The position numbers and the translations under genes were made by a program. DNA of 39,731 nucleotides, from positions 1 through 39,731 of the forward strand of contig JADBJK010000033.1 in assembly GCA_014874485.1 (NCBI GenBank), written 5' to 3'. The stretch is from Chloroflexota bacterium. Lineage in GTDB: Bacteria; Chloroflexota; Anaerolineae; DTLA01. This document shows, piece after piece, positions 5,366-35,244 of the stretch (its first letter is position 1; each line of letters begins with the position of its first letter). The notes beneath the pieces were generated by a model. That model worked only from the letters and a program-made list of their open reading frames with translations, was not told the DNA's origin and did not search any database.

Positions 5366-6535
5366 CTATGGCTTGCAGAGCACCTGACCCACGTAGATGC
5401 AGTTCGGGTTCGTCAGGTTGTTCTTGACCATGATGGCGTACACGGTCGTGCCCCAGCGGATCGCCAGCGAGTACAACGTATCGCCGCGCTGCACCACATA
5501 GCACTGGCCGGGTGGCGGCGGGGGCACCGTGCACGGCACCCGTAGCCGCTGCCCCACGTAGATGTTGAAGCAGCAGGTGGAGATGCCGTTGATGCTCGCC
5601 AGGTACCAGATGGTGGTGCCGTAGCGCCGCGCGATGGAGTACAGCGTGTCACCGCGCTGCACGACGTACCAGCAGTCCTGCGGCGGCGGAGGCGGCGGCG
5701 TTACGCCTGGGATGCACAGCACCTGCCCCACGCGGATCAGGCTCGGGTTCGCGATGCCGTTGGCCGCAGCGATGGCCTGCACCGTGGTGCCGTAGCGCCG
5801 CGCGATGGAGTACAGCGTGTCGCCCCAGCGCACGGTGTAGTACGCCGCGCACGGGCCGGGCGGGACCGGCGTGGCCGTCGGGCTGGGTGGCGCCGGGGTC
5901 GCCGTGGGGCCGGGCGTGGCCGTGGGGCCGGGGGTCCGCGTCGGCGTCGCCGTCGGCGCGGGCGTGTTGGTCGGCCCGCCCGTTACGGTGATGGTCGCGT
6001 TCTGCGTCGCCGCCGGAATCGGCTGCGTGAGGTTGTTCAGCAGCGAGACCGACGTGAAGATCACGCTGGCCGATCCCCCGCTGACGCCCTGGAACACGAT
6101 GCGGGCCAGAGTCCCGCTGCCCGACACCGGCGCAGCGGGCGCCAGCAGCGTCATCGCGTAGATGATGGTCCCCGACGCGTTGTCCGCAGAGTTGACGGCC
6201 ACGAACCCGTCGGCCGGATTCGGGAACGTCCCGGGCTGAATCTGCACGCCGGTCTGGTAGGCCAGCGCATCCTGCACCTGCAGGCGGGTCGGGTCAAAAC
6301 TGAGCCTGACCTCCACCCCGAACAGCCCGGTTACGTTCTGAATCTGGACGTCCAGGGTAACCGTGCCGCCGATGGGCACGCTTGAGGCGCTGGGTATGAG
6401 CGCCACCGTTGCGCCATCTGCCCGTGCGACGTCACTTCCCGCGAACGGTATCCCCAACCCCACCAGGATGGTAACCGCTGCCATGACGAGAGAAATGATG
6501 CGCCGGGCCAATGGCATTTTCTCTCTTCCGTTCAT
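5366..6535 (-). CDS. Secreted cohesin-domain protein with three C-terminal LysM repeats
   Basis: A 389-residue protein. It has a signal peptide (about 1-39, ending ARA), a cohesin-type beta domain (about 42-190: IGGTVTLDVQIQNV, GVEVRLSFDPTRLQV, GTLARIVFQG), a Pro/Thr/Gly linker, and three LysM modules (about 230-278, 286-334 and 343-389). Each LysM carries a Y-V/T-V-x-x-GDTLYS(I/L)A motif. LysM binds peptidoglycan N-acetylglucosamine and cohesins bind dockerins, so this looks like a wall-attached receptor for dockerin-bearing proteins. The next gene upstream encodes a dockerin. The first ATG (6541) sits one base from AGGAGG; the second (6535) has a proper 7-base gap and is preferred. Confidence 0.9.
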   Translation of the reverse strand: MNGREKMPLARRIISLVMAAVTILVGLGIPFAGSDVARADGATVALIPSASSVPIGGTVTLDVQIQNVTGLFGVEVRLSFDPTRLQVQDALAYQTGVQIQPGTFPNPADGFVAVNSADNASGTIIYAMTLLAPAAPVSGSGTLARIVFQGVSGGSASVIFTSVSLLNNLTQPIPAATQNATITVTGGPTNTPAPTATPTRTPGPTATPGPTATPAPPSPTATPVPPGPCAAYYTVRWGDTLYSIARRYGTTVQAIAAANGIANPSLIRVGQVLCIPGVTPPPPPPQDCWYVVQRGDTLYSIARRYGTTIWYLASINGISTCCFNIYVGQRLRVPCTVPPPPPGQCYVVQRGDTLYSLAIRWGTTVYAIMVKNNLTNPNCIYVGQVLCKP

Positions 6536-6605
6536 GTTCATTCCTCCTTACGATACTCTGTCGTTTCGCGTTCTTGGTGAGGACGGGGGATAGGCCCGGC
6601 CTCCG

Positions 6606-6656: not shown

Positions 6657-9600
6657 TTACTGAATCCGCAGCAGTTTGGCGTTCGGTTCGGCGCCGATGC
6701 CGCGGATGGGCCCCAGCCACAGGGAGCCATCCTGCGCCTTCACGTCCAGCGCCACGGCCTGCGCCGTCAGCAACTGCGCGTTGCCGAAGCGGAGCATGGT
6801 GGGGCCGGCCTTCAGGCCCTTGAACGTGATGCGCGCCAGCACCGCGTTGCCCTGGAGCGCCGGGGTCGGATCCAGCAGGGTAGCGGCGAAGCGGATGACG
6901 CCGGCGGCCTCGTCCACAGCGTTCAGCGCCACGAACGCGCCGTTCCCCGCGAACACGTCGCCGACGGCAACCTGCACGCCCTCCTTGTTCGGATCCGCGT
7001 CCACTACGCTCACGGCCGCCGGGTCATACCGGACTTCAAACTCGCCCGCGTAGAGGTCCGCCACGCTGCTCGCCACGACCTCCACGGTCGTCTGCGCGCC
7101 CGCGGGCAGGATGCGGAACGAGGGCGAGAAGCCCAGTTTGGCCTGGCCGCGCGCCGCGGCGACTTCCGCAACCGTTACCCAGTCGGTCGGGCCGGTCTTG
7201 TTGTAGTTCGCGCCCACCAGCACCAGGTCAATCAGGTTGCAGGTCCCATCGCCGTTGATGTCGGCGCGGGAGTCGGCCGGCGGCGTGGAGCCGTACATGG
7301 CGCCCACGATCACCAGGTCCACGATGTTGATGGTGCCGTCGTTGTTGGCGTCGCCGCCCAGCAGCATGGTGCTCCCGATGTTGACGGAGCCGGACGCAGG
7401 CACCACCACGCCGGTCTTGCGGGCCGACAGGTAGCCAGGCTTGCTGGCGATGACGGTGTACGTCCCGGCGGGCACACCGGCGATGGTGAAGGTCCCGCCG
7501 CTGCCGGTGCTAACCGGCGGCAGCGCGCCCGCGGCCACCGACACGCCGCTGTGGTCGGTCCGCGACTGGAGCGACACCTGCCCGCTGATGGAGCCGGTGG
7601 TGATCACGACTTCCAGCGACCCGCCTTGCGTGGTGCTGCACAGTTGCGTGCCGTTGCGGTCCACCAACTGGCCCAGGGTGAAGGCCACGTTGGCCGTGCC
7701 GGTCGCCAGGCCCCTGAAGTGGACCGTGGCCAGCACACCGCTGCCGCTGGCGGGCGGCGCCGGGTTCTGCAGCGTGAACGTGTAGCGGATCACACCGGTC
7801 CCGTTGTTGGCCGAGTTGTTCTGCATGTAGCCGCTGCCAACGGGCAGGAACGGCCCAGGCGTGATCTGGATGCCGGGCGTCGCCGGATCGTCGTCCACCA
7901 CCTGCACGCGGGTGTAGTCAAACGACAGTTGCAGATCCACGCCGTACAGGTTGGACACGTTCTCCACGCGGATGTCCACCGCCACCGTCTGGCCCACGCC
8001 CACCGTCTGCGTCGTGGGCGACAGGCGGATCAGCGCGCAGGTGGAGACGAAGATGTACTCGGTCTTGGTCTCCGTGTCCACTCCGCACGGACCCGACACC
8101 GTCAGGGTTACGGTGTACACCCCGGGCAGGTTGTAAACGTGCGACGGATTCTGCTGAGTAGACGTTCCGCCGTCGCCAAAGTTCCACGACCAGGAGGTGA
8201 TGGCCCCCACCGACTGATCGGTGAAGTTCACCGTCAGCGGGGCCTGGCCCTGCGTCGGCGTCGCGGTGAAGTCCGCTTGCGGCGGCGTGCAGGCCTCGGT
8301 CGTGTTGATGTAGATATCCTTCGGGTCGGTCGGGTCGTACCAGAACATCACCCGGTACACCGGTGCCTGCGCCGCCAGCGGAGTCGGCGGCAGGTACTGC
8401 GTGCAGTCAAAGTCCGCGCGCAGGTTGTACCACCACCAGTCGGTGGTCATCAGGTACTTCTCGCCGGCCGGGAAGGACAGTTCCGTGTACTTGTCGGGCG
8501 ACGTGCGGTACTCGGTGAGCATCCAGAGTTGCGGCGTTTCCACGCCGTCAAACAGGTAGATTTCCTTCAACTCGCCGTAGAACTGCGGCTCACGGGCCTC
8601 ATCCACGATGGTGATCTGGAGCGGAGGCCGCTGGGTGAGCACCCGCCCGATGCAGTTCGGGTCGGTCCACAGCATGTAGGCCGGGTTGCCCATGGTCAGT
8701 TCCGCGCGGTTCAGCGGAGTTACCAGCGGGCTCGGGTTGTTCCAGATCTCCGGCATGCTGAGGACGTCCTCACGCACCGTGTGCAGGTAGTTGAACGGCG
8801 GCATCACCGAGATGGCGTCCCGCAGCCAGTAGCCTTCCAGAATCTGGCTGTCCTCGTAGTTCACGAAGTCGTCGGGCTTCGGGACAGGGGTGCGGATGGT
8901 GATGTACTTGAACTCATACGGGTCTTCGTTCGGATACCCATAGGTATTCGGGACGGTCATCAGGGCGACGACGTTGTACTCGTGGCCGTCCACGAAGAAC
9001 CGCTTGAGGTACCACGGGTCGCCGGGCGTGAGGTCGTGCCCGCCGGCCGCGTTGTCAATGGCCGAGTGGCTGGCACCCAGCGCGCGCCCGATGATGAGGT
9101 TGACCGTCTCGGTGGCCGAGTTGATCTGGTCCACATAGACGAACCACGCGCCGTTCAGGCTACCCAGGTTGGTGCCGCCGGCCAGGATGCGCCGATAGCC
9201 GGTGCGGTCCACGATGGCCATCTCGCCGGGCCGCAGCGTTACGGGCGAGCCGGGCACCAGGTCGGGGTGCTTGGAGTTGTTGGCGTGCATCCCGCCGCCC
9301 GTGTACCACAGCGTGATGTCCGCCGAGGTCGCGGGCACGGCGATGTTCGCCAGGCTCACCATGTGGTCCAGCAACTGAGCGCTCTGGCCGCGCTGCAGAT
9401 GCACCGACCGCGCGAAGATGACCAACTCGTCGCCCGAAAGCGCAGTGCCGTCGGTGTCCAAGTTGTCAATCGCGCCGTTGCCATTGAAGTCGGCGCCGAT
9501 GCCGGTGGTCTGCTGCAGCGTGAACTCGGAGTGGATGGTAACCGCATCCTCAACGCCGTCAAAGTCGGCGTCAAAGGTGGTCAGGCCGTAGCCCGCCGAG

Positions 9601-12368
9601 GGCAGTTGCCCGCTGGGGATGGAGCCGCCGACCGGCTTGGGCAGTTGGTTCGCGCCCGTGGCGATGGGGAAGGCGAAGACGCTCTTGCCCGGCTGGCCGT
9701 TGCTCGGCTGGTCGTTCATGTCCAGGTACATGTAGGTGAATTCCTGCATGACCGCCGGGAACGTCATCACCTCGGTGGGCGTTACCACCGGCGCCGCGCC
9801 TCCCAACTGGGCCCGCACGATCTTGTCCACGTAGGTGGGCTCGTACCACATGCGGAAGAACACCTTCTCGCCCGCGTTCCCCTCGCGGATGGAGATCTGC
9901 CGGTACAGGTCCACCAGCGGCTCGCCGCTGTTGTTGTACTCGTTCATGTAGGCCGGGTTCAGCGTTACGAAGTCCTTGCGCGGAGCCTGCGGATGATCCG
10001 GGTCAAACGGCGCCAGCGGGTCCGTGTACGGCAGCACTTCCACAGGGTACGGCGCCAGGCGGTCCATGTACGCCGTTACGTCGCCCGCGCCCTTGTTGCC
10101 CAGGATTCCGTCGGGCCACGTCCAGGCCTGAATCTGGCCGAGCACAGGCTCGCCGTAAATCCAGTCGCCGTAGATGCGCAGGCCCTGGGTGTCCTTGTAC
10201 TTCTTGCCGCCCACCGCCGGGTCAAACCAGAACATGATGGGCACCGGAGGTTGGGCCGTGCCCAGGAGCGTTGCCCAGTCGGGCGCGGTGCGCAGCCAGT
10301 AGCGGCGCTCGGACTGGTAGTTGAAGAACACGCTCTTCATCAGGTACAGGTCGGGCGTGTTCAGGCCCGTGATGGCCGTGCGGACATCGGGGAACACCAT
10401 CTCCGTGTACCACCACGGCACGGTCATGAACTGCCGCGTGCTCCAGTACTGCCCGCCGTCCTCGCGCTCCGAGTACAGTTCCCGCAGCATGCCCAGGAAC
10501 TGCTCGTTCTTGTCCTCTTCCACGTAGTAGAGGCTGGTCTCGCGCGCGTCCGTGTAGGGGCTGTTCGGCCCATAGCCGACGTAGGGCAGGGTCTTGTTCT
10601 TCTGCAAGATGGGCGCAACCGGCCCCACCAGCCGCCCGACGGACCGGATGTTGATTTCCCACCGCTGCTGCACGGGATCCCAGACATCAAACTCGCTGAA
10701 CTTGGTGATGGCGTTGATGTCCTGGATGTAGTAGTGTTCGTAGTTGTACGGCGGCAGGACAGACAGGTTGTCGTTGGCCAGGTAGTGCTGCAGTTGCACC
10801 GAGTGCTGCCCGATGCGAACCGGCACCTTCGGGATGGGCGTGCGGATGGTGATGAACTGGAACTGGGTCAGATCCGGCACGAAGTTGTAGGGGTCATAGG
10901 GCGGATCAATGAACCCGTCGTTGTTCACGTCCAGGTCCGGGACAGGCCCGAAAGCCCCGCCGGGGGTTATGCCGCCGTTCCGCGTCATGATCGCCACCAC
11001 GTTGTACTCGTGGCCGTCCACGTAGAAACGCTTCAGGAACCACGGGTCGCCCGGGCGGCGGTCCTCGCGGTACATCCCGTCTTCCATGGCGCTGTGCGTG
11101 GCACCCACCGCGCGGCCAACGATGAGGATCGCCTGGTTCTCGTCACGGTCCACACCCTGGAGATACACAAACCATGGCCCGGTCGGGAAGCGGGTCATGT
11201 TGGTGCCCGGACCGCCATTGCGGACGGCGCGGATGAGTTGAGCAGGCCCCTGCGAGCCGGCCAGCACCATGTCGCCAATCTGGAGCGTTACGGACGGGAA
11301 GGGCCGCGGGGTCAGGTCGCCTGTGTAGTAGATGCCCAACTGCACGCCGTTGTCCGAGACCTGCTCCACCATGGCGAGGTGGTCAAGGAACTGCACGCCC
11401 CTGCCCCGCTCCACCGGCGTGGCGCCCAGCCGCAGCACCGCCAGTTCGGTGCCGTTGAGTACGGTCGCGTCGCGGTCCAGGCGGCTGATGAGCCCGTCGC
11501 CGTCAAAGTCTGCCGCAATGCTGGTGAGGGCGTAGAGCGAGCGTTCGCTTTCCACGTGGACGATGTCGGGAATCCCGTCAAAGTCGCCGTCCAGGCTGGT
11601 GAGACCGTAGCCGAACTGCGCGTTGGCCGAGGTCATGTCCACCGCACCGTTCGGGGTGAACAGGTCCTCGGACTTCATGCCCACGGGGAAGACGAAGGAC
11701 GTGCCCACGTTGCCCCAGGTGGGCATCGGCGGCGGCTCGGCGGTCAACTGCTTGCCCTCCATCAGCAGGTAGGTGAACTCCTGCATCAGGGCCGGATACC
11801 AGATGTCGGTAACCGGCATGGTGGGTTCAAACTCCCACCGGGGCGAGGCGATGTCCAGGATTCCGTTGCCGTTCAGATCCTTGTCCCAGTGCTCCGGCTC
11901 GTACCACATCCGGAACCACACCTTCTCGGAGGCGTTGATGGGGGTCAGGATCTTCTGGTACAGCCCCTTGGCCCAGTTTTCGTCGCGGGTGGCGCCTTCG
12001 TACATCCACGCGGGGTTGAAGGTAACCAGGTCGCGACTAGGGGCTTGTACGCCTTCGGGGTCAAACACGGACATGGTGTCCGTGTACGGCGGATCCTCCG
12101 GGAGAGTGCCCAGGACGGGATCGGTCGCCGTAGTGTCGCCCGCCCGTGGGTCGCCCTCAATGGGCAGGTTGGGGCGGTCCCAGCCGGTCCCGTAGATGCG
12201 CAGGGTGTGGGCCACACCGTTCTGCGCCGTGGGGTCGGCCGGAGGGGATTGTGGCGGCGCAGCCGAGGCCGGCGCCACACCGGAGGGGACGATCGCCAAC
12301 AGCATGGCGAGAATGACCAGCACGGCCACCACGTTGGCGATCCTTTGGACAGTGAGTCTCGCTTGCAT
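6657..12368 (-). CDS. Giant secreted scaffold-like protein: two ~640-residue repeats, PKD, cohesin, dockerin, cohesin
   Basis: A 1,903-residue exported protein. The start is the ATG with GGGAGG 7 bases upstream, and the signal peptide ends ASA near residue 35. Residues about 45-725 and 726-1360 are diverged copies of one another (LRIYG..., Y(T)D...FDP...AP..D.VT.NPA.M, EKV.FRMWYEP, FFVDGHEYNVVA). Each copy contains EF-hand-like Asp-rich segments (DGDFDGIPD, DFNGNGAIDNLD). Then come a PKD domain (about 1360-1445, WNFGDGG), a cohesin (about 1445-1590), a carboxypeptidase-regulatory-like beta domain (about 1593-1670), a type I dockerin with two Ca loops (about 1668-1731, GDANNDGTINIVDL and ADINGDGTCNLIDL) and a second cohesin (about 1741-1886). 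Carrying both partners suggests polymerisation or docking onto the LysM-cohesin protein encoded downstream. The N-terminal repeat domain is unrecognised. Confidence 0.9.
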   Translation of the reverse strand: MQARLTVQRIANVVAVLVILAMLLAIVPSGVAPASAAPPQSPPADPTAQNGVAHTLRIYGTGWDRPNLPIEGDPRAGDTTATDPVLGTLPEDPPYTDTMSVFDPEGVQAPSRDLVTFNPAWMYEGATRDENWAKGLYQKILTPINASEKVWFRMWYEPEHWDKDLNGNGILDIASPRWEFEPTMPVTDIWYPALMQEFTYLLMEGKQLTAEPPPMPTWGNVGTSFVFPVGMKSEDLFTPNGAVDMTSANAQFGYGLTSLDGDFDGIPDIVHVESERSLYALTSIAADFDGDGLISRLDRDATVLNGTELAVLRLGATPVERGRGVQFLDHLAMVEQVSDNGVQLGIYYTGDLTPRPFPSVTLQIGDMVLAGSQGPAQLIRAVRNGGPGTNMTRFPTGPWFVYLQGVDRDENQAILIVGRAVGATHSAMEDGMYREDRRPGDPWFLKRFYVDGHEYNVVAIMTRNGGITPGGAFGPVPDLDVNNDGFIDPPYDPYNFVPDLTQFQFITIRTPIPKVPVRIGQHSVQLQHYLANDNLSVLPPYNYEHYYIQDINAITKFSEFDVWDPVQQRWEINIRSVGRLVGPVAPILQKNKTLPYVGYGPNSPYTDARETSLYYVEEDKNEQFLGMLRELYSEREDGGQYWSTRQFMTVPWWYTEMVFPDVRTAITGLNTPDLYLMKSVFFNYQSERRYWLRTAPDWATLLGTAQPPVPIMFWFDPAVGGKKYKDTQGLRIYGDWIYGEPVLGQIQAWTWPDGILGNKGAGDVTAYMDRLAPYPVEVLPYTDPLAPFDPDHPQAPRKDFVTLNPAYMNEYNNSGEPLVDLYRQISIREGNAGEKVFFRMWYEPTYVDKIVRAQLGGAAPVVTPTEVMTFPAVMQEFTYMYLDMNDQPSNGQPGKSVFAFPIATGANQLPKPVGGSIPSGQLPSAGYGLTTFDADFDGVEDAVTIHSEFTLQQTTGIGADFNGNGAIDNLDTDGTALSGDELVIFARSVHLQRGQSAQLLDHMVSLANIAVPATSADITLWYTGGGMHANNSKHPDLVPGSPVTLRPGEMAIVDRTGYRRILAGGTNLGSLNGAWFVYVDQINSATETVNLIIGRALGASHSAIDNAAGGHDLTPGDPWYLKRFFVDGHEYNVVALMTVPNTYGYPNEDPYEFKYITIRTPVPKPDDFVNYEDSQILEGYWLRDAISVMPPFNYLHTVREDVLSMPEIWNNPSPLVTPLNRAELTMGNPAYMLWTDPNCIGRVLTQRPPLQITIVDEAREPQFYGELKEIYLFDGVETPQLWMLTEYRTSPDKYTELSFPAGEKYLMTTDWWWYNLRADFDCTQYLPPTPLAAQAPVYRVMFWYDPTDPKDIYINTTEACTPPQADFTATPTQGQAPLTVNFTDQSVGAITSWSWNFGDGGTSTQQNPSHVYNLPGVYTVTLTVSGPCGVDTETKTEYIFVSTCALIRLSPTTQTVGVGQTVAVDIRVENVSNLYGVDLQLSFDYTRVQVVDDDPATPGIQITPGPFLPVGSGYMQNNSANNGTGVIRYTFTLQNPAPPASGSGVLATVHFRGLATGTANVAFTLGQLVDRNGTQLCSTTQGGSLEVVITTGSISGQVSLQSRTDHSGVSVAAGALPPVSTGSGGTFTIAGVPAGTYTVIASKPGYLSARKTGVVVPASGSVNIGSTMLLGGDANNDGTINIVDLVIVGAMYGSTPPADSRADINGDGTCNLIDLVLVGANYNKTGPTDWVTVAEVAAARGQAKLGFSPSFRILPAGAQTTVEVVASSVADLYAGEFEVRYDPAAVSVVDADPNKEGVQVAVGDVFAGNGAFVALNAVDEAAGVIRFAATLLDPTPALQGNAVLARITFKGLKAGPTMLRFGNAQLLTAQAVALDVKAQDGSLWLGPIRGIGAEPNAKLLRIQ

Positions 12369-12547
12369 TTTGTTGCCTCCCAATTGGTTTACTGGTGGTG
12401 TTCAGAACACCGTTGACGGTTCCACGCTAGACCCGACCGAAATGTTCACCAGGCGACCAGCAACAAGGTACAAAACGACCCCGCACGCCATCGTCAGGAC
12501 GTGTGCACAACACATGCCAAAGGAGAAATCCCCTCTACTCTTGACAT

Positions 12548-15762: not shown

Positions 15763-16377
15763 TCACCGCGCCAGGAGCAGTGCGCGGCGCACCGGCTGGT
15801 CGGCCCCGCCGGGCCACGGGGCGTCGTTCCCGCGCGCCGCAACGGGCAGGAACACGCGGAACGGCCAGAACCCGGGCACGCGCTGCCGCGTCCCCGGCGA
15901 GTTGGACAGGCACGACCAGTTGAACACCTCGTCGGCGGCGCGAACGCAGAAGTAGTACGGCGCGCCATCGTCCTCTAGCCCGACCACCACACACGACTCG
16001 GCCGAACCCGCCGGGCCGGGCGCAGGCACGCCTGGGAGGGGAATCGCGGCCTCCCAGTCGGCTTCGGTCAGGATAGGCGCGCGGGCGTAGCGAATCTCGT
16101 ACAGCGTGGCCGTCCCCACCATGTCATCGTCGCCGGGGGCCGTCCAGTACAGGATGAGCGCGGAGCCAGAGCCGTCTGCCGTCTCGCCGATGCGCAGGTC
16201 GGTGATGCAGCCGGGGGGAATGGTGTCGTTGGCGCGCACGGTGAACACGCCGGCCGCTGTCTGGCAGTCGGGTGAGCGGGCCGACGCCGTCGGCAGCGAC
16301 AGCGTCAGCGCCGCAACGACCAAAGCACATGCGATGCGTCGTATCGCCGGCGGCACCATCTTCGCAACTTTCTGCAT
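15763..16377 (-). CDS. Secreted fibronectin-type-III-like protein
   Basis: A 204-residue exported protein. The signal peptide covers about 1-33 (hydrophobic ACALVVAALTLSL, cleavage after SAR or nearby). A single beta-sandwich of fibronectin III type covers about 50-165 (PPGCITDLRI, ALILYWTAPGDDD, YEIRYA, YYFCVRAADEVFNWS). The end contains FRVFLPVAARG; an LPV/LPL-type motif near the C-terminus recurs in Chloroflexi secreted proteins and is also seen in the protease at 30995. The start at 16377 has only a weak ribosome site; the ATG at 16359 is an alternative that keeps most of the signal peptide. It is last in the minus-strand run 20373-15763. Role unknown. Confidence 0.75.
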   Translation of the reverse strand: MQKVAKMVPPAIRRIACALVVAALTLSLPTASARSPDCQTAAGVFTVRANDTIPPGCITDLRIGETADGSGSALILYWTAPGDDDMVGTATLYEIRYARAPILTEADWEAAIPLPGVPAPGPAGSAESCVVVGLEDDGAPYYFCVRAADEVFNWSCLSNSPGTRQRVPGFWPFRVFLPVAARGNDAPWPGGADQPVRRALLLAR

Positions 16378-16425: not shown

Positions 16426-17634
16426 TTACCGGTCGTTCGGTTCGGGCTGGGCCTTCTTGCGGCGGCGGGCCAGGATGGGCACGATGCCGATCAACACCGT
16501 CCCGCCGGCCGCCGACAGCATCAGCGCCCAGTTGAACCCGCCGGAGTCGGCGCGGGACTGGGCGGCCACGGTCCCCTTGCCGGTGGGGCTGGCCTCGGCG
16601 GCGGGTTCCACGCGCAGGGTCTCCACCGGACTGGCGGCGTAGGTCTGCCCGCCGATGGACAGGAGCGCCTGGAAGGTGTACTCACCGGCCACCCAGCCGT
16701 CGGCGGGGATGAAGGCGTAGTGCAGGCCGATGCTCCCCTTCTCCAGCGGGGCCAGCGTGGCCATCTGAATCTGAGTCAGGGGCGCGCCGTCGCGATCCAC
16801 GGTGAGGATCGTGCTGGCCTCGGGGAAGGCCGTGTACAGGTTGTTGAGGGTGTACACGATGTCGGCGAAGGCCAGCGCGCCGGTGTCGTTGCGGTAGTTG
16901 GGCACGACGCCGAACCCCTCAAAGTACACGGTGGCGACGGTGAGGGTAACGGTCTTGGCCTCGCCGTTGGCCACGTCAAAGGTCTCCTCGCCCAGGCGCT
17001 GGCCGCCCATGTAGGCCACGGCGGCGAACCGGCCGGGCGAGACGGTCGCCTCCAACAGGCCGGTCTCGGAGTAGGCCACCTCGCGCCGGTCGTCGCCGAC
17101 GAGTTTGAACAAGCGCACGGTCGCGGGCACGGGATCTCCCGACGGGCTGACCGTCCGCGCCTGGACCATGGCCGACTCGCCCAGCACCACCAGGCGGGCG
17201 CTCTGGCCCGCCGCGCCCAGCAGTTGGATGCCCTCGCCGGCAGCCTTGAACGACTCGGCGGTGAGGTTGATGGTGTACTCGCCCGCCGGCGTCTCGCGGC
17301 TCACCGACACGCCCACCATCACCTTCCTCTGTTCGCCGGGCTTCAGCGCGAACTCCTCCTCCGAGAGGAGCACCTGGACGCCTGCGGGCGCTTCCCAGGC
17401 CATGCGCACGCCGAACTCCTCGCTCCCCTGGTTGAACACGATGACGTAGATGCTGGGGGCGTTGACCGAGGAGCCTTGCGGAATCTCAAAGGACTGGCGG
17501 TAGAACGAGCCGGACATGGCCAGCCCGCCCCCCTGGGCATGAGCGACCGGCGCGGCCCGCATCCCCACGATGAGGATGACCAGCAGCGCCGCCGCAACCC
17601 ATCTCCGATTCGCGTGCCATGACCTGTTACCCAT
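16426..17634 (-). CDS. Membrane-anchored extracellular Ig-like protein (DUF916-like architecture)
   Basis: A 402-residue protein. A signal peptide (about 10-34) is followed by an Ig-like domain (about 42-130: SFEIPQGSSVNAPSIYVIVFNQG, LKPGEQRKVMVGVSVSRETPAGEYTINL), a carbohydrate-binding-like beta domain, and a further beta domain to about 355. A C-terminal transmembrane helix (about 368-390) ends in RRRKK, with the bulk outside the cell. The beta-sandwich ectodomain with one C-terminal anchor recalls DUF916/DUF3324 proteins, which accompany WxL surface proteins in Firmicutes. The two paralogous genes upstream would be the partners. That parallel is an inference from architecture. The start was chosen at an ATG with GAGG upstream; the in-frame GTG upstream lies in the ribosome-site region. 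Confidence 0.8.
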   Translation of the reverse strand: MGNRSWHANRRWVAAALLVILIVGMRAAPVAHAQGGGLAMSGSFYRQSFEIPQGSSVNAPSIYVIVFNQGSEEFGVRMAWEAPAGVQVLLSEEEFALKPGEQRKVMVGVSVSRETPAGEYTINLTAESFKAAGEGIQLLGAAGQSARLVVLGESAMVQARTVSPSGDPVPATVRLFKLVGDDRREVAYSETGLLEATVSPGRFAAVAYMGGQRLGEETFDVANGEAKTVTLTVATVYFEGFGVVPNYRNDTGALAFADIVYTLNNLYTAFPEASTILTVDRDGAPLTQIQMATLAPLEKGSIGLHYAFIPADGWVAGEYTFQALLSIGGQTYAASPVETLRVEPAAEASPTGKGTVAAQSRADSGGFNWALMLSAAGGTVLIGIVPILARRRKKAQPEPNDR

Positions 17635-17693
17635 ACCATCCCTCACGAGGGCCTGGGGCACAGTCCCCCGCGGCCCGTGATCCCGATGGGCGC

Positions 17694-17757: not shown

Positions 17758-18747
17758 CTAATCGTTGATGATCTGGAAGTAGATGTACCCGCTGTACGTG
17801 TCCTCAAAGAACGGCGAGCCGAGTTTCAGCCACAGGCTGTTGCCGGTCTCGTCGTGGCCCGATTCGCCGGTCTGGGTGCCAGTGTTGAACGTGGTGTAGG
17901 CCGCGCTCTGCACCTGCACCGCGTCGGCGATGGTGTTGTCGTCATCGGCCATGAGCGAGAACTCGTTGGCCGCCGGGGTGCCCGCCGCGTTCAGGGTGGC
18001 CGTGTGCGACGCGCCGTTCCACGTCCCGCCGGCCTTGACCTGCTGGTTGTAGCCGCCGTTGGCCAGGTAGTTGATGGCGATGCCGCTCTGGATGGTGTAG
18101 TTGGTGCCGGGGGCCAGCGTGCCCCAGTCCACCAGCGCCGTGCTCACCGTAACCTCGCCGTACCAGTTCATGTCGTAGTCGCTGCCGTCGTAGCGCGTGC
18201 CGGTGGCGCTGTTGTCGTCGGTGGCCACGGCGTAGGCGTCCCAGTCGGTGGCCTCGGTCGCGACCTTGCCGGGCTTGAAGTGGAACCACCAGGTGCCGGT
18301 GCTGCCGGTCAGCGTGGGCTCCACGCAGTTGGCCGACACGATGGCCCAGGTGGTGGGCGAGCCGCTGCTGATGGTCCACGTGGACGGCGTCCCCTTCGTC
18401 CACGTCAGGATGGCAGCGGTCTGCGTGTTGCCCGTCCCGGGCACGTCGCCCGCGTCGTCATCGCCGTCGGCGTCAAAGAAGATGGTAACGCGGACGGTGG
18501 TCAGGTCGTTGAGTGTGTTGGCGTCGCTCACGGTAACCTTGACCGCATATTCGCTTTGCGGCGTCATCGCCGTTACGGCGGTGGCGTGATCGGTCTCGTA
18601 GATGCCCAGATCGCTGATGCTGGGGGCCGCGTTGGCCGTTGTAAATTGTCCGGTGGTCTGGTCTTCGTCGGCGAAGGCCGCCACGGGCAGCATGGCTACC
18701 AGTATAACCAGAGCTGCCAGGATTGTAAAGAACTTCCGCTTTTCCAT
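17758..18747 (-). CDS. Secreted beta-rich surface protein, paralogue of the 492-residue protein upstream
   Basis: A 329-residue exported protein. The signal peptide MEKRKFF...AAFA is followed by acidic DEDQTT. An Asp-rich segment (FFDADGDDD, about 95-105) then precedes a conserved block shared with the next gene upstream: TAAILTWT, GSPTTW, TGTWWFHFKPGKVATE.TDWDA, YDGSDYDMNWYGEV, VDWG, then INYLANGGYNQQVKA and NSLWLKLGSP near the end. The region after about 195 has a spacing similar to WxL or other surface beta domains, but the diagnostic motif is not evident. The start has GAGGAGG upstream; the longer frame is implausible. Probably cotranscribed with its neighbours and located on the cell surface. 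Confidence 0.8.
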   Translation of the reverse strand: MEKRKFFTILAALVILVAMLPVAAFADEDQTTGQFTTANAAPSISDLGIYETDHATAVTAMTPQSEYAVKVTVSDANTLNDLTTVRVTIFFDADGDDDAGDVPGTGNTQTAAILTWTKGTPSTWTISSGSPTTWAIVSANCVEPTLTGSTGTWWFHFKPGKVATEATDWDAYAVATDDNSATGTRYDGSDYDMNWYGEVTVSTALVDWGTLAPGTNYTIQSGIAINYLANGGYNQQVKAGGTWNGASHTATLNAAGTPAANEFSLMADDDNTIADAVQVQSAAYTTFNTGTQTGESGHDETGNSLWLKLGSPFFEDTYSGYIYFQIIND

Positions 18748-18894: not shown

Positions 18895-20373
18895 CTATGG
18901 CGTGATGCGATAGTAAATCGTCCCGGCGTAGGTGGTGTCGGGTATGCCCGACGACCCCAGGCGGAGCCACAGCGTATTGGTGGCCACCTCGGTGCCCCCC
19001 TCGGCAGTCCGCGTGCCCACGCCGATGGTGGCGTAGGCGCTGGAGCGCACGACGACGGCGCCGGGCAGGTTGTTGGCGCTGTTGGCCTTGAGCGAGAACT
19101 GGCCGGGGCCGGGCGTGCCGGTCTCGTTGAGCGCGATCCAGCGGGGCGCGCTGCCCCACGGATTGGACGCGCGCACCTGCTGCTGGAACGCCCCGTTGGC
19201 AATGTAGGTAACCGAGACGCCGGTTCTCGGATTGGCCGGGAAGTCGGAGCCGAGCAGGACGACTCCCCAGTTGACGCTTGGCGTGTTCACGTGCACCTCC
19301 CCGTACCAGTTCATGTCGTAGTCGCTGCCGTCGTACAGCGAGGCCTGGGCAGCACCGCCGTCCCGCGCCGCGGCCCAGGCGTCCCAGTCGGTGGATTCGG
19401 TGGCCACCTTGCCCGGGCGGAAGTGGAACCACCACGTGCCCGACGTGCCCGACAGGTCCGGTTGCGCGCAGTTGGCGGTTACCAGCACCCAAGTGGTGGG
19501 CGAGCCCGCGCTGATGCTCCACGACGGTGTCGGGCCGTTGGTCCACGTGAGGATGGCGGCCGTCTGGGCATCGCCCGACGCGGGCACGTCGGCGGGGTCG
19601 TCGTCCCCGTCGGCGTCCAGGAACACCACGGCCCGCACCCACTGCAGGCTGGCCAGCCCGTCCGCATCCGACACCGACACGCGCACGGCATACTCGGCCT
19701 GGGGGTCCATGGCCGTGGCAGGCGTAACGCGGTCCGGCTGGTAGATGCCCAGGACGTTCACCGACGGCGGGGCGTTGGTTGGGGTCGGCGTAGGGGTGGG
19801 CGTGGGCGTGTTCGTGGGCGTCGGGGTGGCTGTCGGCGTAGGGGTCGGTGTTGGGGTGGGCGTAGGGGTTACCGTCGCGCCGGGGCAGGCCGGACCATCG
19901 ATAGAGCCGATGCCAGTGTCGGGCGGAACGCGAGCCGCGATGGCGACGGTGGTTACGGTGTGCCAGTCGCCAAGGGTAACGGTGAATGTCTGCGGCGGGT
20001 CGCTGGGCCAGATGTCCACGTCCCACACGATGCCGTACACGCCGCCTGCATTCCGCACGTACCCTCGTGGGTTACTGGACACGACCGTGTGGCCGGAGCA
20101 GAGTCCAAGCACCCACCAATGGAGTTTCTTGGTGGCCCCGCAGTCATCCACTGTATACGTCCAGGTGGATGTGCCATCCTCGTTGTACGTTACGCCGTCA
20201 AAGTGGAAGCAGTAGCCGAGGAGCGTCTCGCTGTCGGCGGGGAAGTTCTGGGTTTGCCGCGGGGTGTCCGTGCGGGCGTCGCCGTGGACAGCAGGCGCGA
20301 AGAGGGCCGCCAGCAGCATCGCCGCGGCGATCAACAGCCCCCGAATGACCGTCTGCTTGCCCAAGCGTTCCAT
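18895..20373 (-). CDS. Secreted two-domain surface protein with Thr/Pro linker, paralogue of the 329-residue protein
   Basis: A 492-residue exported protein. It has a signal peptide (about 1-31), an N-terminal Cys-containing domain (about 45-160: YCFHFDGVTYNEDGTSTWTY, CGATKKLHWWVLGLC), a long TP-repeat linker (about 165-205), and a C-terminal unit (about 207-492) homologous to the whole mature 329-residue protein. Shared blocks include FLDADGDDD, AAILTWTNG, TGTWWFHFRPGKVATESTDWDAW, YDGSDYDMNWYGEV and NTLWLRLGSSG. The pair thus arose by duplication, with gain or loss of the N-terminal domain. GGAAGG lies 9 bases before the ATG. Upstream is the 11-bp CGTGAA array, so this gene is the likely entry point of a regulated operon. 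Confidence 0.85.
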   Translation of the reverse strand: MERLGKQTVIRGLLIAAAMLLAALFAPAVHGDARTDTPRQTQNFPADSETLLGYCFHFDGVTYNEDGTSTWTYTVDDCGATKKLHWWVLGLCSGHTVVSSNPRGYVRNAGGVYGIVWDVDIWPSDPPQTFTVTLGDWHTVTTVAIAARVPPDTGIGSIDGPACPGATVTPTPTPTPTPTPTATPTPTNTPTPTPTPTPTNAPPSVNVLGIYQPDRVTPATAMDPQAEYAVRVSVSDADGLASLQWVRAVVFLDADGDDDPADVPASGDAQTAAILTWTNGPTPSWSISAGSPTTWVLVTANCAQPDLSGTSGTWWFHFRPGKVATESTDWDAWAAARDGGAAQASLYDGSDYDMNWYGEVHVNTPSVNWGVVLLGSDFPANPRTGVSVTYIANGAFQQQVRASNPWGSAPRWIALNETGTPGPGQFSLKANSANNLPGAVVVRSSAYATIGVGTRTAEGGTEVATNTLWLRLGSSGIPDTTYAGTIYYRITP

Positions 20374-20402: not shown

Positions 20403-20441
20403 CGTGAACAGTCCGTGCAGAAAGCGTGAACGTAGCGTGAA
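20403..20441 (-). promoter_or_regulatory. Four-unit 11-bp direct-repeat array (PhoB/OmpR-type site)
   Basis: Plus-strand units CGTGAA, CGTGCA, CGTGAA and CGTGAA start at 20403, 20414, 20425 and 20436, each exactly 11 bp apart. Read on the minus strand they are (G)TTCACG units facing the 492-residue gene. OmpR/PhoB-family regulators bind head-to-tail half-sites at about one helical turn; the PHO box of Streptomyces PhoP has GTTCACC units at 11 bp. The array ends 30 bp before the start codon. Confidence 0.7.
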
Positions 20442-20451
20442 TTTCAGCCCC

Positions 20452-20480
20452 ATTGTACGGCGGCGGGAAAACCCATCCAA
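20452..20480 (-). promoter_or_regulatory. Candidate promoter inside the CGTGAA region
   Basis: On the minus strand there is a -35 TTGGAT (20475-20480), a 17-base spacer and a -10 TACAAT (20452-20457). If used, the four-unit array would lie just downstream of the start (repressing position) and the two-unit sites upstream (activating position). Alternatively, TATGGA (20386-20391), 11 bp past the array, could be an activator-dependent -10. Confidence 0.45.
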
Positions 20481-20498
20481 TGGGAAAATGGTACTATC

Positions 20499-20515
20499 CG
20501 TGAAGATTGCGTGAA
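20499..20515 (-). promoter_or_regulatory. Two-unit 11-bp direct repeat, same family as 20403-20441
   Basis: CGTGAA at 20499-20504 and 20510-20515, 11 bp apart in the same orientation as the main array, 18 bp upstream of the candidate -35. Confidence 0.65.
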
Positions 20516-20550
20516 GACAAAAGGAGAGCGGCGGACGCTATTCGCCGCCG

Positions 20551-20567
20551 CGTGAACGGAACGTGAA
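20551..20567 (-). promoter_or_regulatory. Two-unit 11-bp direct repeat, third cluster
   Basis: CGTGAA at 20551-20556 and 20562-20567, 11 bp apart, same orientation. It lies just past the stop of the portal-like gene. Together the three clusters give eight half-sites in 165 bp. Confidence 0.65.
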
Positions 20568-20616: not shown

Positions 20617-21780
20617 CTACTCGTCCTTCTCGCCCGCGAACTTGAGCAGCCAGCGCCGCGCCGTGGCGTCGTCCAGCCAGCCGCGGTCCACCGACGTGGC
20701 CAGGGCGGGCACCAGCGCGGCCAGCGCCGCCGCCTGCTCGCGGTTGTCCGAGGGCGTGAGGTCGGGGAACGTGATGCTGTACGGCGCGGCCCGCCCCAAC
20801 CGCCGCCGCAGCGCCTGGTCCAGCACGTCGCGCAGGAGCGCGGCCACCTCCTCCCGCATCGCCTCAAACGTGCGCAGCGACGGCCCGCCCATCTCTGCCG
20901 CCACGGCCCGCGTCCCGCTCTCCACTTCGCTGAGCCAGTGGATGGGGATGCCCGCGCCCGCCGCGATCATGAGTTTGATGGCGTGGCCGTCCCAGCGGGC
21001 GTCGTCGGCCTGAAGGTTGGGCGCGGCGGCCCGCCATTCCTCGTCGTCGGCGTGGAACAGCACCGAGCCAGGTTCGGGCGGCTGGGCGTACTGGTTGGCC
21101 TTGGCCCGCAACTTCTGCGGCGTCGCGCTGCGCACCGCCACCGTCCACAGCCACGACGAGCGCCCGCGGTTCAGCATCACCCTGTCGGCCAGCCACTGGC
21201 GGTAGCGCCGCAGCCACGGCAGGAGCACCCACAGCGTGGAGCGGCCCCGCAGCGCGTTGGACACCTTGTGGATGGCGAAGTGCTGCACCTCGTCGGGGAC
21301 GGCATACCACGCACCCGCCCCGCCTTCGGGTGCCATCTGGTGCACGCGCACCACCACCTGGGCGTTGGCGGGGTCGGTCTGGAGTTCGTCCACCGTGGAC
21401 GGGTCCATCTGCCAGATGGTGCCGTCGGGGAGCCAGCGGATGAACTGTTCGCCGTAGAGGTGGAGTTCGCGGACGATGGCGCGGCCCTTGCGGGTCATGT
21501 CGTTGGCGGCCCAGAAGTCGTCCAGCGCAGCCTGCACGGCGGGGTCGGCGGCGGCGACGGTCGGCCCGCGCCCCCACAGGTACGCCGTGAGAATCTCAAT
21601 GATGCGGAAGGCCAGGGGATTGCCCGTGTACGCCTCGTAGGCCGCGGCGTGGAGTTCCTGGTACGTGGCGGGCGTCAGGTCTTTGTCCGACGGCCACGGG
21701 CCGATGGCGCGGAACAGCGGGGCGTCGGCCTCGTCGGATTCGGCTTCGCGGACGCGGACGATGCGAAACGGCAAGCGCAT
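20617..21780 (-). CDS. Orphan phage portal-like protein
   Basis: A 387-residue protein with the layout of tailed-phage portal proteins. It has an N-terminal segment on bound residues (YTGNPLAFRIIEILTAYLWGRG), an all-beta/helical wing region (AIVRELHLYGEQFIRWLPDGTIWQMDPSTVDEL), the HFAIHKVSNALRGRSTLWVLLPWLRRYRQWL helix, and a stem-like segment ending GIPIHWLSEVESGTRAVAAEMGGPSLRTFEAMREEV. A portal forms the dodecameric DNA channel of a capsid. No terminase, protease or capsid gene is adjacent; neighbours are surface-protein and glycosyltransferase genes. The frame is intact with a good AGGAGGT site, so it is either a prophage remnant or a domesticated gene. The longer frame to 21870 is rejected in favour of this start. 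Confidence 0.65.
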   Translation of the reverse strand: MRLPFRIVRVREAESDEADAPLFRAIGPWPSDKDLTPATYQELHAAAYEAYTGNPLAFRIIEILTAYLWGRGPTVAAADPAVQAALDDFWAANDMTRKGRAIVRELHLYGEQFIRWLPDGTIWQMDPSTVDELQTDPANAQVVVRVHQMAPEGGAGAWYAVPDEVQHFAIHKVSNALRGRSTLWVLLPWLRRYRQWLADRVMLNRGRSSWLWTVAVRSATPQKLRAKANQYAQPPEPGSVLFHADDEEWRAAAPNLQADDARWDGHAIKLMIAAGAGIPIHWLSEVESGTRAVAAEMGGPSLRTFEAMREEVAALLRDVLDQALRRRLGRAAPYSITFPDLTPSDNREQAAALAALVPALATSVDRGWLDDATARRWLLKFAGEKDE

Positions 21781-21808
21781 GGCGCACCTCCTGCACGGTG
21801 TCGCGGGG

Positions 21809-21837
21809 GTTATACCGCGCGGGCGGGCGGTTGATAA
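21809..21837 (-). promoter_or_regulatory. Candidate promoter for the portal-like gene
   Basis: On the minus strand there is a -35 TTATCA (21832-21837), a 17-base spacer and a -10 TATAAC (21809-21814), about 29 bases before the start codon. It suggests the orphan gene is expressed independently. Confidence 0.5.
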
Positions 21838-21949
21838 GGGCGAGGCGCAGCCCGCGCGGGAGAACCTCACGGTCCGTTTGACACCCTGGCCGCCCGCGTG
21901 TTACACTTCCGCCACCATCCCGTGCCAACCTCATGAGGAGAGGACTCCC

Positions 21950-35047: not shown

Positions 35048-35205
35048 TTTTCACCGCAGAGACGTAGAGAGCGCAGCAGAGGAAAGGGAAGATAGGGATT
35101 TCCTCTGCGCACTCAGCGTCTCTACGGTGAAAAAGACCTCTCCTCCGCGCCCTCTGTGTCTCCGCGGTGAAAAAGCCCACCCCTCCGCGTCTCTGCGGTG
35201 CAAAA
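35048..35205. repeat. CGTCTCTGCGGTGAAAA-type repeat cluster with nested hairpin
   Basis: Outer arms 35048-35064 and 35117-35133 pair over 17 positions with one mismatch. Inner arms GCAGAGGAAA (35076-35085) and TTTCCTCTGC (35099-35108) pair perfectly. Two more GCGGTG(A/C)AAAA copies follow near 35164 and 35195. It follows the stop of the PAS gene and may end its transcript. Confidence 0.7.
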
Positions 35206-35244
35206 GCCCACACGCGCGGCGTTTTGCATACAGCCGCGCGCGGG

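Follow-up and report, generated by a model that had tools for sequence, protein, structure and literature searches.

Regulators of the OmpR/PhoB family, which include PhoP of B. subtilis and PhoB and OmpR of E. coli, act on operators composed of head-to-tail half-sites repeated with a period near 11 bp, placed just upstream of the -35 hexamer or replacing it. The PHO box of Streptomyces, with the unit GTTCACC, is of this kind. For PhoP of M. tuberculosis, a member of the same family, direct repeats of 7 bp separated by 4 bp, i.e., a period of 11 bp, are described in PMC4832192. Direct repeats in varying number are also bound by the Streptomyces protein BldC as cooperative multimers, the repeats being 9 bp long with the consensus AATTXXXX(C) (PMC5859096). 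On the side of the proteins, the WxL surface loci of Gram-positive bacteria combine a membrane-anchored Ig-type protein with small secreted beta proteins.

The window analyzed here is the whole stretch of 39,731 nucleotides from contig JADBJK010000033.1 of a Chloroflexota bacterium (GCA_014874485.1), a representative of Anaerolineae, a large and mostly uncultured class. The draft genome holding the window (contig 3) is designated G000, and its two congeners G001 and G002. Eight units of one orientation were found at positions 20403-20567, upstream of an operon of four genes, P1 to P4. On the minus strand the distal pair of units is followed by the proximal pair, a core promoter element, the -10 hexamer TACAAT, the predicted start at about 20445, a run of four units and the start codon of P1 at 20373. 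The features are as follows:

20562-20567, minus strand: TTCACG unit 1, distal pair; invariant in the three species; about -122 from the predicted start
20551-20556, minus strand: TTCACG unit 2, distal pair; about -111
20510-20515, minus strand: TTCACG unit 3, proximal pair; about -70
20499-20504, minus strand: TTCACG unit 4, proximal pair; about -59; TTCACA in G002
20478-20496, minus strand: putative core promoter element TAGTACCATTTTCCCATTG, the terminal TTG of which begins the weak -35 TTGGAT; invariant in the three species
20452-20457, minus strand: putative -10 hexamer TACAAT, 20 nt after the core element and 17 nt after TTGGAT; TAAAAT in G001
20436-20441, minus strand: TTCACG unit 5, opening the four-unit run; about +4
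20425-20430, minus strand: TTCACG unit 6; about +15
20414-20419, minus strand: TGCACG unit 7, imperfect; about +26; TACACG in G001
20403-20408, minus strand: TTCACG unit 8; about +37
18895-20373, minus strand: P1, secreted, with a signal peptide, a threonine/proline linker and a beta-rich domain at the C-terminus; its start codon lies 72 nt downstream of the predicted transcription start
17758-18747, minus strand: P2, secreted paralogue of the C-terminal domain of P1, 54% identical
16426-17661, minus strand: P3, with an Ig/NEW3-like ectodomain, a C-terminal membrane helix and a basic tail
15763-16377, minus strand: P4, small secreted protein, Fn3-like by eye, with no Pfam match

Inside the clusters the units lie 11 bp apart. 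An earlier sequence-only reading had described eight CGTGAA half-sites; their positions, orientation and 11-bp spacing were confirmed, but only seven of the eight are exact, the unit at 20414 being CGTGCA. The pair CGTGAA-N5-CGTGAA with at most one mismatch gave five matches in the window, all of them at the array, against an expected 0.19 +/- 0.39, and none of 100 shuffles of the window gave five. The 3.74-Mb genome has three exact pairs, again only at the array (reversed control 0), while with one mismatch the pair is at chance level elsewhere in G000 (seven matches outside the array versus 19 in the reversed control). No RNA element was matched in an Rfam search of the window.

The operon is kept in both congeners, P1 being 94% identical in G002 and 79% identical in G001. 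Retention of the operon with loss of the spacing in relatives had been named in advance as the outcome that would speak against the array; nearly all spacings are in fact retained, namely, 11-41-11-63-11-11-11 in G000 and G002, with 62 in place of 63 in G001. In the three-way alignment of the promoter, invariant columns make up 46 of 48 in the units, 11 of 25 in the within-cluster spacers and 23 of 71 in the rest (Fisher test of units versus within-cluster spacers, p about 1e-6). All 21 positions are invariant in the block 20478-20498, which lies downstream of the proximal pair and before the -10 hexamer. The genes flanking the operon differ among G000, G001 and G002, while the promoter stays with the operon. 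The sequence-only reading is supported in that half-sites arrayed head to tail every 11 bp, in the manner of OmpR/PhoB operators, precede an operon of secreted beta-rich proteins; the eight units are conserved, probable protein-binding sites. A phage portal-like gene (phrog_10963, E 5e-25) is located just upstream of the operon in the window (20617-21870, minus strand) and was not seen beside the operon in the two congeners.

From the likeness of the unit to the actinobacterial GTTCACC, it had also been proposed that these are PHO boxes, through which a phosphate regulon of PhoB/PhoP type runs the surface layer under phosphate limitation. The half-site letters and the period are indeed shared with the Streptomyces box, and clusters similar to phoB-phoR-pst-phoU are present in G000 and G001, with other pst/phoU loci across the three genomes. 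However, the pst/phoU loci retrieved from the three genomes, about 73 kb of sequence, yielded no TTCAC-N6-TTCAC pair when up to one mismatch was allowed (boxes diverging at more than 1 of 10 positions would escape this search). The window units are not associated with phosphate genes, and arrays of the unit precede genes of surface appendages, chemotaxis, secreted proteins and signalling. The phosphate hypothesis is accordingly very improbable and can be set aside. Envelope stress had been offered as the alternative signal, and it may play a part.

The sequence-only reading missed two things: the core element at 20478-20496 and the location of the four-unit run downstream of the predicted start. 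With at most three mismatches, the three genomes have 7, 6 and 6 sites of TAGTACCATTTTCCCATTG, versus 1, 0 and 1 in the control, and at nearly all such sites a -10 hexamer starts 20 nt past the element; since this distance is regular, the final TTG of the core would be the beginning of a -35 hexamer with a 17-nt spacer. The proposed -35 is weak, and in a scan of the intergenic region with the sigma-70 consensus no site reached the threshold. In 196 genomes of the class, the generalized form TAGTAC-N4-TTCCnATTG-N20-TAnnnT gave 194 matches outside the genus against 39 in the control. Genes of Flp-type pilins were found behind core-element sites in five other genomes examined as well as in the genus of the window; the one pilin that was tested by Pfam matched Flp_Fap with E 2.6e-6, under the curated cut-off. 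The element also precedes genes of secreted proteins, of a protein similar to PilZ and of one similar to type IV pilins; wherever Pfam was not run, for the Flp-type pilins as well, the genes were identified by eye. By sequence, the block 20478-20498 is part of a putative class-wide core promoter element of Anaerolineae surface-protein genes.

From the position of TACAAT we infer a transcription start near 20445. The four-unit run spans +4 to +42 from this start and the two pairs lie on the other side of the promoter; the placement of the run resembles that of a repressor. A similar placement is seen at the locus G000:C110, where the first unit of a pair starts 8 nt past TATAAT. A second promoter (G000:C71:4303) and its counterpart in G001 show the order of the window, with TTCAC-like units immediately preceding the core element.

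The shorter unit is enriched well beyond the operon. Exact TTCAC-N6-TTCAC pairs number 11, 10 and 10 in the three genomes against 0, 2 and 0 in the reversed control (31 versus 2), three pairs per genome being the operon's own array; the three-unit form with at most two mismatches gave 15, 8 and 11 matches against 2, 1 and 1 in the reversed control. Some exact pairs look incidental, in particular those in the leader of a cold-shock gene (L168) and in an interspersed repeat (L162). One TTCAC-pair match lies before an mraZ-like gene (L153, L143) in the orientation opposite to that of the window units; an MraZ operator was considered in this connection and set aside. Other sites in the genus are as follows:

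C93: conserved array before the gene of a CpaF-like T2SSE ATPase
G000:C96: array directly after the gene of an OmpR-family regulator and before the gene of a SIMPL lipoprotein; conserved in all three genomes
C71:71080: conserved array before the gene of a PAP2-like protein
C71:96186: conserved array before the gene of a receiver-HD protein
C63: array before the gene of a papain-family protease
G000:C53: single pair before the gene of an HTH_17-receiver protein

At G000:C110 (L099), the gene of an OmpR-type regulator in which no receiver domain was recognized is followed downstream by that of an S8 subtilase, which is secreted and bears VNWGS repeats (Pentapeptide_2) at its C-terminus.

At other arrays the -10 hexamer (TATGAT, TATAAT, TAAAAT, TATCTT/TATCGT or CACAAT) starts exactly 22 nt after the last TTCAC. 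Among 39 distinct array ends of the genus, picked without regard to a -10 hexamer, TAnnnT occurs at offset 22 in ten, and at most three times at every other offset. These ten ends represent four independent loci, and a fifth locus has CACAAT at the same offset. The chance estimate for this excess, 2e-7, is rough and holds as an order of magnitude only, since the background is mostly coding DNA and 12 independent loci were assumed. Such an arrangement is as expected for an activator that would be bound just upstream of the -35 region. No cluster of the window has a -10 hexamer at N22: the nearest upstream pair lies 42 nt before TACAAT, and the four-unit run is downstream of this hexamer.

The N22 distance was learned in the genus, so that genomes from the rest of the class put the spacing to the test anew. 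In a search of 199 class genomes, three units followed by N22 and TAnnnT, with at most two mismatches, gave 92 matches in 43 genomes outside the genus against nine matches in nine genomes for the reversed control. A single simple tandem repeat in G115 accounts for five of the 92, and some of the remaining matches represent the same array read in overlapping registers. In the family f24, two genomes carry 17 and 10 of the matches. The genes right behind the class arrays, assigned by a simple ORF caller and by Pfam on a chosen subset, encode a type IV pilin (N_methyl), archaellin (Arch_flagellin), CheW, PilC (T2SSF) and FliK (Flg_hook); a sigma factor (regions 2-4), OmpR-family regulators followed by a kinase-like gene, and HTH_17-like proteins were also found. 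Over all arrays, the targets recognized by Pfam are T2SSE ATPase, REC-HD, C1 and S8 proteases, pilin, archaellin, CheW, T2SSF, FliK and the sigma factor; with no control set of promoters scored beside them, the named genes give an impression of functional bias and not a statistic. On one Anaerolineae contig (L257), genes of archaellin (Arch_flagellin, E 8.8e-22) and CheW are each preceded by a TTCAC array. A variant array, TTTACG-N5-TTCAC-N6-TTTACTGA, with the -10 hexamer at the same distance, precedes FliK and sigma-factor genes in other families (L222, L229, L237 and others).

The most likely predicted binder of the units is a response regulator of the OmpR/PhoB family, which fits best by the period of 11 bp, the half-site letters, the distance to the -10 hexamer and the presence of arrays beside regulator genes. 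The operators of this family and the arrays described here agree in head-to-tail half-sites and in the 11-bp period and are similar in half-site sequence, and a regulator gene of the family adjoins the site at C96. At the other arrays the last unit is placed shortly before the -35 region, 22 nt ahead of the -10 hexamer; the promoter of the window instead has units on either side of it, none of which takes the place of the -35; the set of genes behind the arrays also differs, comprising surface appendages and not phosphate genes. Because the window units are off the N22 position, their effect may be opposite here, or a different member of the family may bind. Matches to Trans_reg_C (PF00486) number 16-19 per genome in the three genomes, with 19 in G000, and the nearest solved structures for the regulator beside the C96 array, namely, RpaA, MtrA, DrrD and PhoP, indicate the family and not the identity. 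In three genomes of the family f9 (L231, L232, L233), a TTCAC array is located directly upstream of the gene of an OmpR-family regulator, which suggests autoregulation.

The recurrence of HTH_17 genes among array targets makes a BldC-like protein, i.e., an HTH_17/MerR-type winged-helix protein polymerizing head-to-tail on the direct repeats, the main rival of an OmpR/PhoB-family regulator. Among the array genes are five for HTH_17/MerR-like proteins, including two receiver fusions; arrays precede HTH_17-like genes at four loci of the family f24, one of these genes being receiver-fused, and the pair at G000:C53 precedes the HTH_17-receiver gene. A variable number of head-to-tail repeats is likewise common to the Streptomyces BldC operators and the arrays described here. 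However, the 9-bp AATT-based repeats of BldC were not found at the window array, where the period is 11 bp and the core is TTCAC, and the HTH_17 genes may be mere targets of array control; binding by a BldC-like protein is therefore considered unlikely.

The TTCACG units are probably the operator of a factor, most likely of the OmpR/PhoB family, that recognizes head-to-tail 11-bp repeats, and they would decorate the core promoter TAGTACCATTTTCCCATTG-N20-TACAAT. Binding of the regulator to the four-unit run and to the pairs upstream would be cooperative; from its place at +4 to +42 the run would block or gate initiation, and the upstream pairs would load more protein or activate. The TTCAC regulator may in this way gate a surface promoter driven via the core element, and the surface operon would be switched together with pili and motility genes or opposite to them. 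Alternatively, only the TAGTAC core would activate, and the TTCACG array would be an addition peculiar to the genus, serving a repressor that has no relation to the TTCAC regulon of the class, in line with the distance of the window units from the N22 position and with the chance-level occurrence of the TTCACG pair elsewhere in G000. The genome-wide enrichment of the relaxed TTCAC-N6-TTCAC unit argues against this, as does the repeated combination of TTCAC-like units with the core at G000:C71:4303 and its G001 counterpart, and such an unrelated repressor is quite improbable.

The beta-rich domain of P1 and P2 was found in only 3 of 396 genomes of the class, all belonging to the genus of the window. 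The gene pair P2-P3 is also present in Chloroflexi RBG_13_53_26 (L142), where the promoter is missing because the contig begins inside P2; P3 of this genome has a long low-complexity tail past the membrane helix. No sequence match to P1 or P2 was found in the PDB, and the structure model of P2 (mean pLDDT 55) was too poor to use. The operon is similar to WxL loci in having a membrane-anchored Ig-type protein beside small secreted beta proteins, but no sequence match to the WxL or WxLIP families was found in Pfam or NCBIfam; WxLIP (9i1y, 9i25; Z 11.7, 215 residues, rmsd 16.1) is one of the structural matches of the P3 model, next to many unrelated multi-Ig chains with equal scores, so that the operon is at most a candidate WxL locus. 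Elsewhere in the window, PKD, cohesin and dockerin domains are joined in one large protein (6657-12383, minus strand) and a LysM-cohesin protein is encoded as well (5366-6541, minus strand), and tandem repeats of the CTCCGCGTCTCCGCGGTGAAAAAG type and of a 111-bp unit are located at 35101-35211 and 1-264.

The kind of operator is already known, while the regulon and the combination of promoter elements appear undescribed: a keyword search of the literature, with limited coverage of subscription papers, returned no description of the TTCAC or core motifs. The presence of the predicted TTCAC code before genes of the pilus, archaellum, flagellum and chemotaxis points to an undescribed system of cell-surface control in Anaerolineae. 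It is possible, if still tentative, that two superposable promoter codes for the surface exist in this class: TTCAC repeats with N22 and a -10 hexamer, for type IV pili, archaella, flagella, chemotaxis and the Tad-type ATPase, and TAGTAC-N4-TTCCnATTG-N20-TAnnnT, for Flp pilins and secreted proteins. The operon of the window would then be a node where they meet, with the TTCAC regulator acting from both sides of the start. Chloroflexota are among the bacteria that took the archaellum from Archaea, as described in PMC12488501, in the text of which the word "promoter" is absent. If the two codes exist, a single ancestral regulator would have captured appendages that differ in origin, among them the archaella that came from Archaea. 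A cis-code readable before genes of pilins, archaellins, secreted proteins and the proteins of flagella and chemotaxis would permit the prediction of regulons directly from metagenome bins, and the TTCAC code would offer a way to ask how Chloroflexota wired the archaellum from Archaea into their own control.
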